Assembly (NCBI RefSeq): GCF_900167555.1
Contig: NZ_FUYF01000004.1
Location: forward strand, 124,001 to 188,000
DNA: 64,000 nt
Origin: Gemmiger formicilis
GTDB lineage: Bacteria; Bacillota; Clostridia; Oscillospirales; Ruminococcaceae
Direction: 5' to 3'
Under the pieces are notes generated by a model that saw nothing but the letters and a program-made list of their open reading frames with translations, made no database searches and was not told where the DNA came from. Shown here in pieces: positions 1,529-63,467 of the stretch; the stretch's first letter is position 1; the number at the start of each line of letters is the position of its first letter. Both the position numbers and the translations under genes were made by a program.

Positions 1529-1578
1529 GTAGGGGGAGGTCATTGACCGCCCGCGGGCGAGCAATGCTCGCCCCTACA
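1529..1578. repeat. Family A palindromic repeat, copy 1
   Basis: Two abutting hairpins form this copy: a degenerate left unit (GGTCATTGACC arms) and a right unit GGGCGAGCAATGCTCGCCC that ends CCTACA. TGTAGG and CCTACA form terminal inverted repeats. It lies in the gap between the S1-domain gene and the methyltransferase gene. Confidence 0.8.
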
Positions 1579-3625: not shown

Positions 3626-3676
3626 CCTTGGCCCCCTCTGCGAGGGGGCTCCGCCCGCAGGCGGTGGGGGAGAGAA
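3626..3676. repeat. Family B repeat (CTTGGCCCCCTCTGCGAGG type), copy 1
   Basis: This palindromic intergenic element has the arms CCCCCTC-TGC-GAGGGGG followed by a second imperfect hairpin and the tail GGTGGGGGAGAGAAC. Related copies lie at 53636-53690 and 63414-63467. Confidence 0.75.
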
Positions 3677-7503: not shown

Positions 7504-7677
7504 GGCGGGGCACCTCACTTTCCGTAAACAAAAGTATTCTTATTATAGCATAGTTCGGCAGGGTTTGCCACGGGTCTGGCAAAATATTGTGGGGCAATGT
7601 TGTAGGGGCCGCTGCGGAAGGTCCGCGGATTTCCTCAAAAAATCGCAGGAAATCGGCACAAAATCCGCCCGGACCCC

Positions 7678-10169: not shown

Positions 10170-10274
10170 TGTAGGGGCGAACATTGTTCGCCCGCTGCAG
10201 CCTTACGGCAGCGGAGACTTCCGCGGGTAGATGCCGTCCTACACCGTAGGGGTGGATTCTATATCCGCCCGGGG
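10170..10274. repeat. Family A palindromic repeat, copy 2
   Basis: The left unit is TGTAGGGGCG with arms GCGAACATTGTTCGC. A spacer with its own small stem (CTGCAGCC...) follows, then a second unit with arms GGCGGATATAGAATCC-type symmetry in CGTAGGGG orientation. The copy lies directly after the khpA terminator and before rimM. Confidence 0.8.
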
Positions 10275-14539: not shown

Positions 14540-14627
14540 TGTAGGGGCCGGGCATGCCCGGCCCTCAACTGTACGGAAAACGGCATTTCCGGTAAGGCCG
14601 CGGGCCGCACATGTGCGGCCCCTACAG
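14540..14627. repeat. Family A palindromic repeat, copy 3
   Basis: The left hairpin is GGGCCGGGCATGCCCGGCCC after TGTAGG; the right hairpin is GGGCCGCACATGTGCGGCCC ending CCTACAG. The spacer carries CGGCATTTCCGGTAAGGCCG. Arm sequences differ from other copies but remain perfectly self-complementary. Confidence 0.88.
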
Positions 14628-20070: not shown

Positions 20071-21025
20071 ACGTCTGCTGCCCGCGGCCCTGGCCGTGCT
20101 GCTGGCAGGCTGTGCCATGCAGCCCGTGGACAGCACAACGACCCGCTACAGGGTCGCGTTCATAGCCAAAAACAATCGGGATTCCGAGTTCTGGGACGCC
20201 GTCTTTACCGGGGCAGAGGCCGCCGCCACGGAATATAACCTGCAATTGACCATAACGGCCCCCGACGATGAGGAGGACTATGCGGCGCAGAACCAGCTGA
20301 TTGCCGATGCCGTTGAGGACGGCGCACAGGCTATCGTTTTCTCCGCCATTGATTATGAGGCCAACGCCGCTGCCATTGATGCCGCCGCCGCGGCGGGCGT
20401 GACGGTCATCAGCGTGGATTCCGCGGTGAACTCCGACAACGTTGCGGCCTACATCGGCGCGGACAACTACGGCGCAGGCCGGATGGTGGCCCAGAGCGTA
20501 CTGGACGGCATGGAAGGGGCGCTCTGCGTCGGGCTTATCAACTATGAGGTCAACGGTGCCAACGGGCGGGACCGGGAGCAGGGTGCGCGCGATGCTTTTG
20601 CGGAAAGCGGACGCGCCAGGATCACTGCCGCCGTGTCAACACACCCCAACGCCGCCAGTGCCCGCGCGGACACGCTGGCCATGCTGCGCACCCACCCGGA
20701 GATCAATGTGCTGATCGCCCTCAACGAGACGACTGCCGTCGGCGCGGCGCAGGCTGTCCAGCAGATGCAGCGCGCCGACGACCTCTGGCTCGCGGCGTTC
20801 GACTCGAACATCGAGACGATTGACGCCCTGCAGACCGGTACGGTGGACACGCTGATCGTGCAGAACACCTACGGCATGGGCTATTTCGGCGTCGAAAGCG
20901 CCTATAAGCTGCTGGCCGGGCAGGGGAGCAGCGTCGAAAAATCGAACATCACCGCCACCCGCACCATCACCCGGGAAAATATGTTTGCCATGGATAAGCA
21001 AAAGGCCCTGTTCCCGTTTGGATGA
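20054..21025 (+). CDS. Periplasmic-type sugar-binding lipoprotein (sensor partner)
   Basis: This 323-aa lipoprotein (LLAGC, Cys20) has the Peripla_BP_4 ribose/galactose-binding fold: YRVAFIAKNNRDSEFWDAV at the N-lobe, then VDSAVNSDNVAAYIGADNYGAGRM and LIALNETTAVGAAQAVQQ. It overlaps the kinase gene and has no permease or ATPase of its own in this operon, so I infer it presents sugar to the kinase sensor domain, as XylFII does for LytS in clostridia. It could instead feed the mgl transporter. The ligand is not deducible. Confidence 0.85.
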   Translation: MTKTIKRLLPAALAVLLAGCAMQPVDSTTTRYRVAFIAKNNRDSEFWDAVFTGAEAAATEYNLQLTITAPDDEEDYAAQNQLIADAVEDGAQAIVFSAIDYEANAAAIDAAAAAGVTVISVDSAVNSDNVAAYIGADNYGAGRMVAQSVLDGMEGALCVGLINYEVNGANGRDREQGARDAFAESGRARITAAVSTHPNAASARADTLAMLRTHPEINVLIALNETTAVGAAQAVQQMQRADDLWLAAFDSNIETIDALQTGTVDTLIVQNTYGMGYFGVESAYKLLAGQGSSVEKSNITATRTITRENMFAMDKQKALFPFG

Positions 21026-25318: not shown

Positions 25319-25345
25319 TGTAGGGGCCGCACATGTACGGCCCGC
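25319..25345. repeat. Family A repeat, single-unit copy 4
   Basis: Only the left unit is present: TGTAGGGGCC followed by a hairpin with GCCGCACATGTACGGC arms (one mismatch). No right-hand unit follows, so it may be a remnant. Confidence 0.7.
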
Positions 25346-28854: not shown

Positions 28855-29686
28855 ATCCCCCCGCAGAGGTCGATGCTCGCATCGACCCGCCGCTGCTGCT
28901 GCGGGCGGATGCAAGCATCCGCCCCAGCAAACGCCGCTGTGGCAAAAGGCTGCCGCCATCCTTGTGTGGATTCTGATTTGGCAGCTTGCCGCCATGGGGC
29001 TGGGACACGGCGGGCTGTTCCTGGCTACGCCCCTGCAGACACTGGGGGCGCTGGCACAGCTGGCACCCACAGCTGCATTCTGGCAGCGCATCGTGTTCAG
29101 TGCGCTGCGCATAATGGCGGGCTTCCTGCTGGCAGCAGCAGGGGGCCTGCTTCTTGGCGCAGCGGGCGCACGTTGGCACTGGGTACGGGTGTTCATTGAC
29201 CCTGCCATGCAGCTGATCCGCGCCATGCCCGTTGCCAGCTTTGTCATTTTGGCGCTGCTCTGGGTGCGCAGTGCGAACCTGTCGGTCATCGTCAGCTTTA
29301 CCCATGTGCTGCCCGTCGTCTATGCGGGCGTGCTGGGCGGCATTGCCGACACCGACCCGAAGCTGCTGGAAATGGCGAAAGTCTACCGCCTGCCGCTCAC
29401 CGCGCGGCTGCGGTACATCTGGCTGCCCGGCATCTTCCCGTCCTTCTGCGAGAGCTGCATCGCCGCCATGGGCATGTGCTGGAAGAGCGGCGTCTCCGCC
29501 GAGGTCATCGGTCTGCCGGACCACAGCGTGGGCGACGCGCTCTACCGCGCGAAGATCACCCTGTCCACGCCGGATGTGTTCGCGTGGACGCTCGTCATCG
29601 TGCTGCTGTCGGCGGCGCTGTCCGCGGCAGCGGCGGCCCTGCTGCGCACGGCCAAGACACGTCTTTGCGGGGAGGTGCGCGTGTGA
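28844..29686 (+). CDS. ABC transporter permease with repeat-derived N-terminus
   Basis: This 280-aa BPD_transp_1 permease has about six helices and the EAA-type loop LLEMAKVYRLPLTARLRYIWLPGIF (about residues 175-200). Residues about 7-28 (RGRCSHRPAAAAAGGCKHPP) are encoded by two repeat hairpins (28868-28924), and the first true helix begins near residue 33. The ATG at 28844 overlaps the upstream stop by 11 nt but lacks a good ribosome binding site. The next in-frame ATG is inside helix 1, so the original start may have been displaced by the repeat. Confidence 0.85.
   Translation: MQAKSPRRGRCSHRPAAAAAGGCKHPPQQTPLWQKAAAILVWILIWQLAAMGLGHGGLFLATPLQTLGALAQLAPTAAFWQRIVFSALRIMAGFLLAAAGGLLLGAAGARWHWVRVFIDPAMQLIRAMPVASFVILALLWVRSANLSVIVSFTHVLPVVYAGVLGGIADTDPKLLEMAKVYRLPLTARLRYIWLPGIFPSFCESCIAAMGMCWKSGVSAEVIGLPDHSVGDALYRAKITLSTPDVFAWTLVIVLLSAALSAAAAALLRTAKTRLCGEVRV
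28868..28924. repeat. Family A-related hairpin pair, copy 5, inside permease coding sequence
   Basis: GGTCGATGCTCGCATCGACC (28868-28887) and GGGCGGATGCAAGCATCCGCCC-type arms (28903-28924) are two strong hairpins separated by CGCCGCTGCTGCTGC. They lack the TGTAGGGG termini of full copies, but match the GGGCGATGCAAGCATCGACCC hairpin of copy 6. Confidence 0.75.
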
Positions 29687-30302: not shown

Positions 30303-30411
30303 TGTAGGGGCGAACATTGTTCGCCCGCGGAGCATAGCGGCAACCGCCAAGGCTCAGGGGCGATGCAAGCATCGACCCCTACAGCGTAGGGGCGCATTCT
30401 ATATGCGCCCG
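30303..30411. repeat. Family A palindromic repeat, copy 6 (composite)
   Basis: Three hairpins are present: GCGAACATTGTTCGC after TGTAGGGG; GGCGATGCAAGCATCGACC ending CCTACAG; and GGCGCATTCTATATGCGCC after CGTAGGGG. The copy thus combines an inverted pair with an extra unit, showing modular build-up of the family. Confidence 0.85.
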
Positions 30412-42804: not shown

Positions 42805-42875
42805 TGTAGGGGCGAGCATTGCTCGCCCGCAGGGAAGCCGCACACACACGTAGGGGCGGATTCCATATCCGCCCG
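42805..42875. repeat. Family A palindromic repeat, copy 7
   Basis: The unit GGGCGAGCATTGCTCGCCC follows TGTAG; a second, same-orientation unit CGTAGGGGCGGATTCCATATCCGCCC follows after a short CA-rich spacer. This copy is a direct rather than inverted pair. Confidence 0.85.
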
Positions 42876-46856: not shown

Positions 46857-46937
46857 TGTAGGGGCGAGCATTGCTTGCCCACGGAACGCAACGGCAGCCG
46901 CAAAGCGCCCGGGTCGTCGGGGACGCCGACCCCTACA
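46857..46937. repeat. Family A palindromic repeat, copy 8
   Basis: The left unit is GGGCGAGCATTGCTTGCCC (one G-T wobble pair) after TGTAG; the right unit is GGGTCGTCGGGGACGCCGACCC ending CCTACA. The right unit ends 15 nt before the prfA start, so the hairpin lies in the prfA 5' leader. Confidence 0.82.
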
Positions 46938-53147: not shown

Positions 53148-54332
53148 TCATTTATTATAAATGCTTTGCCGGGCCTTGTAAAGAGCTGCGCAGAGAAAGA
53201 CAAACCCCGCCGCCGCGGCGTCCGGTGGCAGACGGAAAACCGGCAGGACGCGGGCGGCCAGTGTACTGCATACCGTCACGCTGCCGGGCAGCAGCTGCGC
53301 ACACACCCTGACGAGCAGCTGCAAAAGTACAAGGTGCACCGCGCGGCTGAAAACTAGCAGCCGCGGGCGGTACGCCGCCCCGGCAAACAGCCGCAGCTGC
53401 GCCCAGACCGAGACACCGAGCACGCTCAGGCAGGCGCAGCAGCCGTACAGCGCCGCCGCCCCGCCCAGCGCCGCAAAGTCCGCGCATCCGGCGCTGACCT
53501 CCAGCGTCGCGCTGACAGCCGTAGGCGGCAGCGGTAGCACTGCCAGCAGCACAGCGCCCACTATGCGGAAGAATACAACGCACCCGCAGACCGACAGCGA
53601 CGACGTGACCGCGGAGGATATGGCCTGCGGCAACCCCTTGGCCCCCTCTGCGAGGAGGCTCCCGCCGCAGCGGGTGGGAGAGAGAACCTTGCTGTGCCCC
53701 GAAACCTCCCGGGTGCAGTTTGTAGGGGCGAACATGGTTCGCCCGTCAAGTTGGCGTGGCTGTGCTTTTCCGGAAAGGCCGCTCCCATCGGAAACGGCCA
53801 GCGGGCGAACAATGTTCGCCCCTACAATGTGGGATAGCAACTGACAAACCGCTCCCGCCCCCAAATTCGCCCCGATCTGCGCCGCGTACAGCACCACGCC
53901 AAGCCGTACATTCCCCAGCAGGGCCCCGCCGACGCAGCCGATCACAAACCCGGGCCCGGAGCAGCAGCCCAGCACCTGCAAAAGTGCAGCATCCCGCCGC
54001 GTAATGCGCCCCGCACCGTACAGCTGCCCGGCCAGCCGTGCACACACTGCATATCCGCCGACCCAGGACAGCAGCAGTGCCCGCGCGGTCTCGGCGGATT
54101 CCAGCCCCAAGACCCGCTGCATGGGCCGCAGCAGGACGGCGGGCGGCGGGGCAGCGGTCAGCAGCTCGCACACGACAAAAAACGGGAACAGCGCGGGTAA
54201 AACGCTTTGCAGGCAGAGCGCCGTGCCCCCGGCAAAGCCCCGGGCCGCGGCCTCCGGTACGGCCAGCACAAGCACCCCGAACGCCAGCGCTGCCGCTGCT
54301 GCAAGCCCCTGCCGATTTTTGCCGTTGTTCAT
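53148..54332 (-). CDS. YlbJ-like sporulation membrane protein interrupted in frame by repeats
   Basis: This 394-aa protein resembles the sporulation integral membrane protein YlbJ: LQSVLPALFPFFVVCELL (about 33-50), WVGGYAVCARLAGQLYGAGRITRRDAALLQVLGCCSGPGFVIGCVG and a C-half with SAVTSSLSVCGCVVFFRIVGAVLL. Residues about 168-233 are encoded by two intergenic-type repeats (53636-53690 and 53721-53826) with no stop and no frameshift. They fall between helices, so the fold may survive, but activity is uncertain. ATG 54332 follows AGTGAGGTG. It is divergent from yqfC. Confidence 0.78.
   Translation of the reverse strand: MNNGKNRQGLAAAAALAFGVLVLAVPEAAARGFAGGTALCLQSVLPALFPFFVVCELLTAAPPPAVLLRPMQRVLGLESAETARALLLSWVGGYAVCARLAGQLYGAGRITRRDAALLQVLGCCSGPGFVIGCVGGALLGNVRLGVVLYAAQIGANLGAGAVCQLLSHIVGANIVRPLAVSDGSGLSGKAQPRQLDGRTMFAPTNCTREVSGHSKVLSPTRCGGSLLAEGAKGLPQAISSAVTSSLSVCGCVVFFRIVGAVLLAVLPLPPTAVSATLEVSAGCADFAALGGAAALYGCCACLSVLGVSVWAQLRLFAGAAYRPRLLVFSRAVHLVLLQLLVRVCAQLLPGSVTVCSTLAARVLPVFRLPPDAAAAGFVFLCAALYKARQSIYNK
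53636..53690. repeat. Family B repeat, copy 2, inside the ylbJ-like gene
   Basis: CCTTGGCCCCCTCTGCGAGG start and GGTGGGAGAGAGAACCTT end match copies at 3626-3676 and 63414-63467. It is in the coding strand's frame (minus strand reads KVLSPTRCGGSLLAEGAKG). Confidence 0.85.
53721..53826. repeat. Family A repeat, copy 9, inside the ylbJ-like gene
   Basis: A complete element with both terminal units: TGTAGGGGCGAACATGGTTCGCCC at the left and GGGCGAACAATGTTCGCCCC-TACA at the right, with a spacer holding CTTTTCCGGAAAGG. The minus strand reads IVGANIVRPL ... DGRTMFAPT. Confidence 0.9.
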
Positions 54333-54390
54333 ATTGCGCACCTCACTGCGTATACTGGACTGACAAGTCTTGTGCGGGGAGGGAACAGCC

Positions 54391-54702
54391 ATGAAACCGA
54401 AAAAGCCGCGTCCCCGCAAGCCACGGGAGCGCCCTGACCTGCGCCGTCTGGCGGCTCCGCCGCCCGCGGACTTCTACCGTCTGCCGGAGCTGGAGCTGCG
54501 CGGCGGCAATCTGCTGACCGACGGCTGCCGCAGGGTGCTGGACTTCACGCCGCAGCGCATCTGTCTGGACATGGGGGACACCCTGGTAACATTGTATGGC
54601 GCGGACCTGCGGATAGAATCCTTCGCGGGCAAAAGATTGATCGCGGCGGGGCGGTTCGCGCGCATTGAGCTGCGCAGCAAGTGGGAGGTGCCGCAGGAAT
54701 GA
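54391..54702 (+). CDS. yqfC: Sporulation protein YqfC
   Basis: This 103-aa YabP/YqfC-family protein has a basic Pro/Arg-rich start and the family beta domain: LPELELRGGNLLTDGCRRVLDFTPQRICLDMGDTLVTLYGADLRIESFAGKRLIAAGRFARIEL. It is expressed in the mother cell and linked to stage IV of sporulation. ATG 54391 follows GGGGAGGG; GTG 54370 upstream overlaps that site. It overlaps yqfD by 4 nt (ATGA), the standard arrangement. Confidence 0.88.
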   Translation: MKPKKPRPRKPRERPDLRRLAAPPPADFYRLPELELRGGNLLTDGCRRVLDFTPQRICLDMGDTLVTLYGADLRIESFAGKRLIAAGRFARIELRSKWEVPQE

Positions 54703-58879: not shown

Positions 58880-58966
58880 CGTAGGGGCGGGGCATGCCCC
58901 GCCCGCAGCCTACCCGTTATAGAGCATTATCCGTAAGGCCGCGGGCCGGACATGTCCGGCCCCTAC
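58880..58966. repeat. Family A palindromic repeat, copy 10
   Basis: The left hairpin is GGGGCGGGGCATGCCCCGCCC after CGTA; the right is GGCCGGACATGTCCGGCC ending CCTACA. Its spacer ends CCGTAAGGCCGCG, nearly as in copy 3. It lies between era and yqzL. Confidence 0.88.
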
Positions 58967-63344: not shown

Positions 63345-63429
63345 CTTCTTGGCCCCCTCTGCGCGACATCCGTCAGGCCGCGTTCCTTGCACACTTTGCA
63401 GTTAGGCTAACTTCTTGGCCCCCTCTGCG
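63329..63429 (+). repeat. 35-bp direct duplication spanning a stop codon and a repeat edge
   Basis: Bases 63329-63363 and 63395-63429 are near-identical (33 of 35), each starting TTTGCAGTT and ending CCCCCTCTGCG. The first copy includes the end and stop of the 316-aa gene plus the left edge of a family B repeat; the second leads into the full repeat. Confidence 0.85.
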
Positions 63430-63467
63430 AGGGGGCTCCCGCCGCAGCGGGTGGGGGAGAGAACCTT
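63414..63467. repeat. Family B repeat, copy 3
   Basis: CTTGGCCCCCTCTGCGAGG, CTCCCGCCGCAGCGGGTGGG and GAGAACCTT match copy 2 closely. Confidence 0.88.

Follow-up and report, generated by a model that had tools for sequence, protein, structure and literature searches.

GTAG repetitive extragenic palindromic (REP) elements form a described superfamily, with a terminal GTAG, a stem of 6 to 13 bp and a short loop. They occur as singles and as head-head, tail-tail and direct dimers; heterodimers are frequent, and the copies are mostly intergenic and sometimes within genes (Di Nocera et al. 2013, PMC3733652). We analyzed a 64-kb stretch of the Gemmiger formicilis genome (the window; positions 124,001 to 188,000 of contig NZ_FUYF01000004.1). 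Its dispersed hairpins look like GTAG-tagged REP elements, often in inverted pairs of the kind called REPINs (REP doublets forming hairpins) or bacterial interspersed mosaic elements (BIMEs). The likeness to the superfamily lies in the tag, the stem, the dimer types and the location.

The first-pass annotation of the window stated that no mechanism had been described for such repeats. However, GTAG REPs have been attributed to REP-associated tyrosine transposases, or RAYTs (PMC3733652, PMC2817692, PMC8266576). In the RAYT/REPtron systems (Nunvar et al. 2010, PMC2817692; Bertels and Rainey 2011, PMC3116915), as here, Y1/HUH genes are linked to inverted REPs, and REPINs are dispersed. The first RAYT description treats REPs outside the gene as obligatory (PMC2817692), whereas both RAYTs of this genome are without them. 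The RAYT genes in PMC3733652 are flanked by GTAG repeats or terminal inverted repeats, some of which overlap the gene ends, whereas here an inverted pair surrounds the HUH motif. The 2011 survey examined non-coding flanks and therefore would miss internal REPs (PMC3116915); any REP survey confined to such flanks misses an in-frame architecture. Palindromic repeats inside genes are also found in Rickettsia. However, the R. conorii elements are CGTC repeats, said to be without a dedicated transposase (PMC3733652), whereas ours are GTAG-tagged and lie in a transposase gene.

In the "orthoswitch" described for Pseudomonas and Stenotrophomonas (Nunvar et al. 2013, PMC3686654), syntenic RAYTs have different REP classes and old classes linger, as we see here. 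In that case the REPs flank the gene. The origin of new REP classes with matching transposases is an open question, because the text of that paper leaves the mechanism open and only speculates on it. In Gemmiger, a mosaic allele suggests an exchange that includes the hairpins and a presumed recognition helix.

The repeats appear to be of a known kind, and what appears to be new is the RAYT gene with REPs inside its frame. Among the top-ranked matches listed by literature searches, subscription papers and supplements excluded, and in the available text of PMC3733652, PMC2817692, PMC3686654, PMC3116915, PMC6006769, PMC8266576, PMC8049555 and PMC6295017, we found neither a report of RAYT genes with in-frame REPs nor a description of GTAG REPs in this genus. 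The main text of PMC3733652 has no occurrence of "Firmicutes" or "Clostridi", and the available text of PMC6295017, on the comparative genomics of F. prausnitzii, does not mention palindromes. We consider it highly probable that the GTAG REPs are spread by RAYT (Y1/HUH) transposases, with several alleles, in-frame hairpins and a segment that is exchangeable at fixed sites.

GTAG-tagged hairpins of the window

The genome that contains the window was scanned as 3.24 Mb in 92 contigs (label G000). The window has 29 matches to the end sequence TGTAGGGGC at up to one mismatch; shuffled sequences had a mean of 13.9, and 0 of 100 reached 29. Thirteen matches are exact, and 11 of these lie within hairpins. 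The other two, at 7601 and 11143, lie outside. Beside 41 perfect window hairpins (stem of at least 8) that were found independently of any motif, GTAG ranked first among tetramers, with 12 occurrences against 5 for the runner-up. It was also the top tetramer in a 200-kb sample of the same genome (52; runner-up, 18). Across genomes, GTAG was first in the G000 and G160 samples and second in those of G161 and G172. Genome-wide, the pattern GTAGGGGC-N6-20-GCCC gave 291 + 359 = 650 matches against 20 + 11 = 31 for the reversed control, counts in which the variable gaps cause some sites to appear more than once.

The repeats have a 5' GT(A/G)G tetranucleotide and a palindrome, a high and mostly intergenic copy number, and inverted pairs with set spacers, as in the GTAG superfamily. 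Their arms fall into classes, A (GGGCGNNC), B (GGGCGGATTC), C (GGGCCNNNCATG), D (GATGC), F (CGTC) and E1 (GGAGGGGTC), with many exact copies. E1 was an additional class, with 83 matches genome-wide and 0 in the control; none was found in the window. An Rfam scan of the window returned just two tRNAs at the gathering score, and the repeats match no curated RNA family. The units in the window are as follows.

1529..1551, + strand: degenerate REP unit with an imperfect hairpin, head-to-head with 1555..1577
1555..1577, - strand: REP class A (GGGCGAGCATTGCTCGCCC)
10171..10193, + strand: REP class A (GGGCGAACATTGTTCGCCC), opening a stretch that is missing from G. formicilis L032 and L033
10246..10270, + strand: REP class B (GGGTGGATTCTATATCCGCCC), in the same orientation as the preceding unit, 10171..10193
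14541..14564, + strand: REP class C (GGGCCGGGCATGCCCGGCCC), left member of a pair located between uvrC and the gene that follows
14602..14625, - strand: REP class C (GGGCCGCACATGTGCGGCCC), right unit of the uvrC-side pair
25320..25343, + strand: REP class C with one arm mismatch, absent in L032
28868..28887, no strand assigned: untagged class-D-like hairpin (GGTCGATGCTCGCATCGACC), perhaps a decayed copy
28903..28924, no strand assigned: untagged hairpin (GGGCGGATGCAAGCATCCGCCC)
30304..30326, + strand: REP class A
30357..30382, - strand: REP class D (GGGTCGATGCTTGCATCGCCCC), in a hybrid pair with the class A unit 30304..30326
30386..30410, + strand: REP class B (GGGCGCATTCTATATGCGCCC)
42806..42828, + strand: REP class A
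42850..42874, + strand: REP class B (GGGCGGATTCCATATCCGCCC)
46858..46880, + strand: REP class A, one-arm intermediate (GAGC...GCTT)
46911..46936, - strand: REP class F (GGGTCGGCGTCCCCGACGACCC), in a hybrid pair with the class A unit 46858..46880
53722..53744, + strand: REP class A, left unit of the REPIN in open frame 53148-54419 (-)
53803..53825, - strand: REP class A, right unit of the REPIN in open frame 53148-54419 (-)
58881..58904, + strand: REP class C (GGGCGGGGCATGCCCCGCCC), placed behind a gene for an Era-like GTPase
58943..58966, - strand: REP class C (GGGCCGGACATGTCCGGCCC), right-hand partner of 58881..58904

A one-mismatch scan found 17 GTAG-tagged hairpins in the window. They cover nine of the ten sites at which the first-pass annotation had proposed at least ten elements with shared ends. 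The remaining site, 28868/28903, has hairpins and lacks both the TGTAGGGGC end and the GTAG tag. At 1529, the hairpin of the first unit is imperfect. In an open reading frame (ORF) scan, only the units at 53722-53825 lay deep inside an ORF. This frame, 53148-54419 (-), encodes 423 aa without a Pfam match at 0.001, and its REPIN encodes VGANIVRP...GRTMFAPT, residues of the type that repeats inside RAYTs encode.

In 264 kb of the genome, neighbors within 110 bp formed 23 inverted pairs with the tags outside, nine direct pairs and nine pairs with the tags inside, and 15 units were single. The spacers of the 23 head-to-head pairs are mostly 2, 29-30, 37-38, 48-49 and 58-59. Heterodimers make up 21 of the 23, and some combine two classes.

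We compared sites between the window and G. formicilis L032 and L033, in which the aligned pieces are 73 to 95% identical. The element at 10170 is cleanly absent from both, and those at 1529 and 14540 are cleanly absent from L033. At the 14540 site of L032, the next gene is missing as well; behind uvrC in L032-L038 and L110, no element like the 14541-14625 pair was found. The element at 25319 is missing from L032, and the L033 sequence stops short of this site. Conversely, L033 has its own unit near 21025, which is absent in the window. At about 586-635, the position equivalent to the window 1529 site, L032 has an unrelated inverted repeat, AGGCAACACTGC...GCAGTGTTGCCT, and this spot therefore seems to collect small elements.

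These comparisons bear on the view that selection maintains the hairpins for a regulatory function in RNA or DNA (as terminators, mRNA stabilizers or protein-binding sites) and that their spread is incidental. Such roles at the RNA or DNA level have been proposed for REPs (PMC3733652), a role in RNA would give paired arm change, and a terminator-like hairpin with a T run shortly precedes four of the listed elements (10170, 25319, 30303 and 42805). However, the tag is specific and present on one side only, relatives lack elements at corresponding sites, the arms match those of transposase genes, and one pair lies inside an open frame. We regard this explanation as very improbable.

Covariation of the arms was examined in the same 264 kb, with units chosen solely by the GTAG, the outer GGG/CCC and the central base(s). 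In the 20-nt class, all six inner pairs were complementary in 22 of 27 units (shuffled mean, 9.4; maximum, 16), and in the 19-nt class in 8 of 11 (mean, 3.0; maximum, 7). The observation that the inner arms vary between copies and stay self-complementary is borne out by these counts. Within classes, compensatory change is seen in GAGC/GAAC/GACC and in CGGG/CGGA/CGCA. The stronger statement, that the structure and not the sequence is kept, fits the paired change, which is real. However, the arms are a few discrete classes with many exact copies, and RAYT genes of this or related genomes have the same or similar arms. From class to class, the arms differ along with the RAYT allele.

Replication template switching or hairpin-templated repair could in principle keep the arms paired in place of a transposase that requires the fold. 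Both arms can be written in one such event (PMC8794818), and incompletely paired units are few (5/27 and 3/11). However, this process leaves the spread, the tag, the matching RAYT arms and the co-variation with the helix unexplained. We consider it quite improbable as the explanation; template switching could act additionally, within classes.

RAYT genes with REPs inside the reading frame

This genome has two RAYTs of the relevant type, at G000:C39:29135-29629 (L112, the same as L151) and G000:C68:167675-168178 (L125, the same as L133). Each has two in-frame REPs inside the ORF, and the two point in opposite directions. Both therefore depart from the REPtron arrangement of two inverted REPs outside the gene; outside pairs are present in some relatives (L160 and L144). 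The first RAYT carries E1 arms. The second carries class A arms, GAGC at site 1 and GACC at site 2, and the same GAGC/GACC combination appears in 9 of 13 close inverted class A pairs elsewhere in the genome, as counted from the listing. The HUH motif is invariant in the A1 alignment. For both proteins the best NCBIfam match is REP_Tyr_transpos. L002/L112 matches Pfam Y1_Tnp at 27.8 (gathering cut-off, 23); L133 has no Pfam match at E 0.001. The two genes are RAYT-like, despite NCBIfam scores below the cut-off and the lack of outside REPs.

Internal REPs were found in 37 of 63 HUH-bearing RAYT ORFs: 19 of 23 in the genus (Gemmiger), 9 of 13 in the family and 9 of 27 in the phylum. This count used 65 of 80 RAYT loci, of which L139 and L155 were then dropped, as they have no recognizable HUH ORF. 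The loci left out were the genome's own duplicates L112 and L125 and the fragments or weak matches L121-L124, L128, L129, L150, L157, L158, L161, L162, L190 and L191. The fractions are biased toward the REP-bearing type, since the loci taken are those with the highest scores and REP-bearing RAYTs contributed to the search profile.

The in-frame hairpins lie in loops beside the HUH motif, typically as an inverted pair that encloses the HUH-coding segment. Hairpin 2 immediately precedes a presumed DNA-reading helix. In the 17 RAYTs with an inverted pair, the arm match between the two sites of one gene was 0.954, compared with 0.584 after shuffling (0 of 10,000 as high). In 8 of 8 RAYT pairs compared, similarity was higher in REP DNA than elsewhere in the gene. 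The pairs were picked by hand, and the detection of REPs, by demanding a good hairpin, favors conserved ones. Between L133 and L134, the identity was 1.00 in REP DNA and 0.84 in the rest, and codons for the same residue had changed in 0 of 16 against 44 of 132 cases. For L137/L138, the values were 0.96 and 0.60. The weakest pairs were L153/L136 (0.87 vs 0.77, with one REP lost), L151/L137 (0.88 vs 0.60) and L147/L148 (1.00 vs 0.99).

The internal REPs could also be chance insertions that are tolerated in surface loops and are without consequence for the enzyme. REPs sit in open frames elsewhere too, both in the window and in other genomes (PMC3733652), and site 2 corresponds to a gap in the E. 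coli RAYT. In L149 and L120, REPINs have accumulated at site 1; they lie in frame in their entirety and lengthen the protein. However, the rate of REPs in RAYTs is far above that in other genes: there are 67 site calls in 28,593 nt of RAYT core, a few of them palindromic double counts, and the same scan found 13 REPs in 494,556 nt of coding sequence from other Gemmiger genes, as delimited by our own simple gene caller. Furthermore, the positions recur, the arms match each other, the DNA is conserved in the compared pairs, and G161 has no other copy that could be the source of an insertion. We consider chance insertion rather unlikely.

Residues such as VGASIARP or GRPMVAPT in predicted RAYT proteins are translated repeats. 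In a Monoglobus sequence (NZ_OY725736.1), class B hairpins lie in the open frame of a RAYT without the usual N terminus, and the first of them is upstream of the annotated start. In G174, a tandem array of 12 direct REP copies, about 31 bp apart, lies directly behind the RAYT (L136 1989-2355).

Arm classes, shared loci and the presumed recognition helix

The arm classes of the repeats were compared with those of the RAYTs. A class A RAYT is present in this genome and in G160, a class B RAYT in G179, and a class C RAYT in G160, with its pair outside the ORF. Class D arms are carried by L147, L148 and L156 and by the G161 RAYT L256, whose arms are those of window 28868. For class F, a G160 RAYT has similar, not identical, arms. 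E1 repeats occur in 3 of 35 genomes (78, 16 and 3 copies) and class A repeats also in 3 of 35 (56, 13 and 4 copies); in both cases the first two genomes have the corresponding RAYT. Class B occurs in 7 of 35 genomes, with 65 copies and the RAYT in G179, and without the RAYT in this genome (69 copies), G160 (19) and G161 (13). The class E2 (GGCGGGGTC) occurs in 14 of 35, including all five with an E2 RAYT. Class and RAYT are strongly associated in the case of A and E1; for B, C and E2, the association is incomplete.

Judged by the flanks they share, 22 of the 25 Gemmiger RAYT loci used belong to four chromosomal sites: gyrB-gyrA (10 loci), the interval between two glycosyltransferase-like genes (5), hisD-hisC (4) and the position after hisC (3). 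These neighbor names are our own reading of the protein sequences. At the loci inspected, the RAYT has the direction of its neighbors. Flanks are far more alike than the RAYTs between them in L142/L144 (97% vs 47% identical), L151/L160 (92% vs 31%) and L154/L159 (88% vs 40%). At shared loci, alleles with different arms replace one another.

L133, L134 and L135 are alleles at one locus. L133 and L134 are 0.78 to 0.90 identical outside the hairpins. The identity of L133 and L135, however, is 0.86 in the 5' flank and 0.79 ahead of hairpin 1, falls to 0.57 between the two hairpins and 0.56 in the 61 nt after hairpin 2, and then returns to 0.89 and 0.87. Both hairpins differ with the segment, GAGC/GACC in L133 and L134 and GCAC/GCAC in L135. 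We read L135 as a mosaic allele: the segment that differs, hairpins included, begins at hairpin 1 and ends shortly after the presumed DNA-reading helix. The same segment could have arisen by fast adaptive divergence, without any exchanged cassette; this is one case, and no donor was found. However, synonymous sites are also more changed inside the segment (20/34) than outside (17/69; p 0.001), and the borders are sharp. The control pair showed 22/56 and 19/67 (p 0.25). The raised synonymous change points to a foreign segment, not to selection on residues alone, and we consider adaptive divergence unlikely. The L135 mosaic suggests a possible route for the Pseudomonas orthoswitch.

The RAYT profile matches the solved E. 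coli RAYT (TnpAREP, 4er8; E 3e-11); a single-sequence PDB search with the RAYT gave no match. In the profile alignment, on which the 4er8 residue numbers were counted by hand, the E. coli protein has an 8-residue gap at the hairpin 2 site, directly before the stretch that holds K82. K82 lies in the conserved DNA-binding helix alpha3 of TnpAREP, and the GTAG contacts are made by beta1, the region around beta4 and the C terminus, with Q95, D100 and R104 named (PMC8266576). By analogy, the differing segment of L135 would hold the stem-reading helix and the hairpins, and most of the parts that read GTAG would be unaffected. The stem is presumably read by the helix that follows hairpin 2. In 50 RAYTs, arm similarity tracks 19 helix residues beyond what the C-terminal part accounts for (partial Mantel r 0.276, 0/2000), and the reverse test for the C-terminal part is weak (0.073, 80/2000); these permutations ignore shared descent. 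In the set of 22 RAYTs from the genus only, both partial correlations are positive (0.366 and 0.232).

L114 and L168, RAYTs of different families that are 46% identical, share the arms GGAACGGTCTTGACCGTTCC. Their presumed recognition helices are similar (LYKSGVAK and LYKAGVSK), hinting at a readable arm-helix code.

Several results weigh against spread of the REPs by such RAYTs. Counting each distinct sequence once leaves little excess of paired arms: 4 of 9 (shuffled maximum, 4) and 3 of 6 (maximum, 3) were fully paired, and the shares of paired cells were 0.833 (maximum, 0.815) and 0.889 (maximum, 0.889). The highest counts among 1000 shuffles equaled these numbers of fully paired sequences; compensatory change is thus real, with few events behind it. 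The two RAYTs of this genome do not reach the REP_Tyr_transpos cut-off of 80 bits, scoring 62.4 (L002/L112) and 59.9 (L133), and L133 has no Pfam match at E 0.001. Only 9 of 27 RAYTs in the phylum sample have internal REPs, and 18 of 27 have outside REPs. No class C RAYT was found in this genome, nor a class B RAYT despite the 69 pattern-matching copies. G151, G170, G171 and G180 have at least 10 E2 copies and no E2 RAYT among the RAYT matches. Class B is little decayed, with 38 of 56 copies exact in a sample of stretches hand-picked from contigs known to hold matches. As a clock for classes without a RAYT, decay did not support a simple relic model; class B looks young. A RAYT that was lost recently, is hidden in an assembly gap or acts across classes would explain class B. 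The A' arms of G161 occur only as the two copies inside its RAYT, with no other exact GCAC-arm copy, and an internal pair thus need not have a dispersed family. Finally, the mosaic is a single case whose borders were fixed after the profile was seen, and its donor was not found among the available sequences.

For the spread by RAYTs, which we continue to favor, we propose the following course. Single-strand-specific Y1 (HUH) RAYTs would spread the REPs by reading the GTAG and the folded hairpin. The RAYTs of this genome and its relatives would be the enzymes that cut and copy the repeats. Several arm classes would coexist because several RAYT alleles, differing in their arms, act now or acted earlier in the lineage. 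A segment comprising hairpin 1, the HUH strand, hairpin 2 and the helix would be exchanged between alleles at fixed chromosomal sites, so that enzyme specificity and hairpins change together. Such exchange is presumably the usual route of class switching. After an exchange, the new class would multiply, and the old classes would stay as leftovers.

A further proposal is put forward tentatively, as one that may well prove wrong. RAYT genes may be self-referential, in that the recognized hairpins in their own coding sequence bound an exchangeable specificity cassette. Recombination would then swap the helix and the target in one step, while the GTAG-reading parts stay. If this is true, a RAYT changes its specificity without a mismatched intermediate state, and the cassette swap would supply the mechanism that the orthoswitch has lacked and explain the accumulation of several covarying hairpin classes in one genome. 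Hairpins inside the RAYT frame keep enzyme and substrate physically joined, and L133, L134 and L135 are a ready test set of natural alleles at one locus.

Other candidates and repeats

A weaker candidate in this genome, the 290-aa Y1 protein L001 (G000:C53:8270-8608), has no hairpins of this type. It was considered as the mobilizer and is not favored, because its 3.3-kb locus has no GTAGGGGC. Many weak matches with frames of similar length to L001 are present in the phylum sample. A search for RAYTs in viral contigs gave 16 pattern matches, of which 0 were confirmed. Plasmid records gave four RAYT matches; in the scan, L193 had internal hairpins, L192 had outside ones only, L194 had an untypical palindrome outside, and L195 had none. 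In the window, another hairpin, GCCCCCTCTGCGAGGGGGC, has copies at 3631-3649 and 63418-63436 with similar flanks and no GTAG tag, and it is perhaps a second dispersed repeat.
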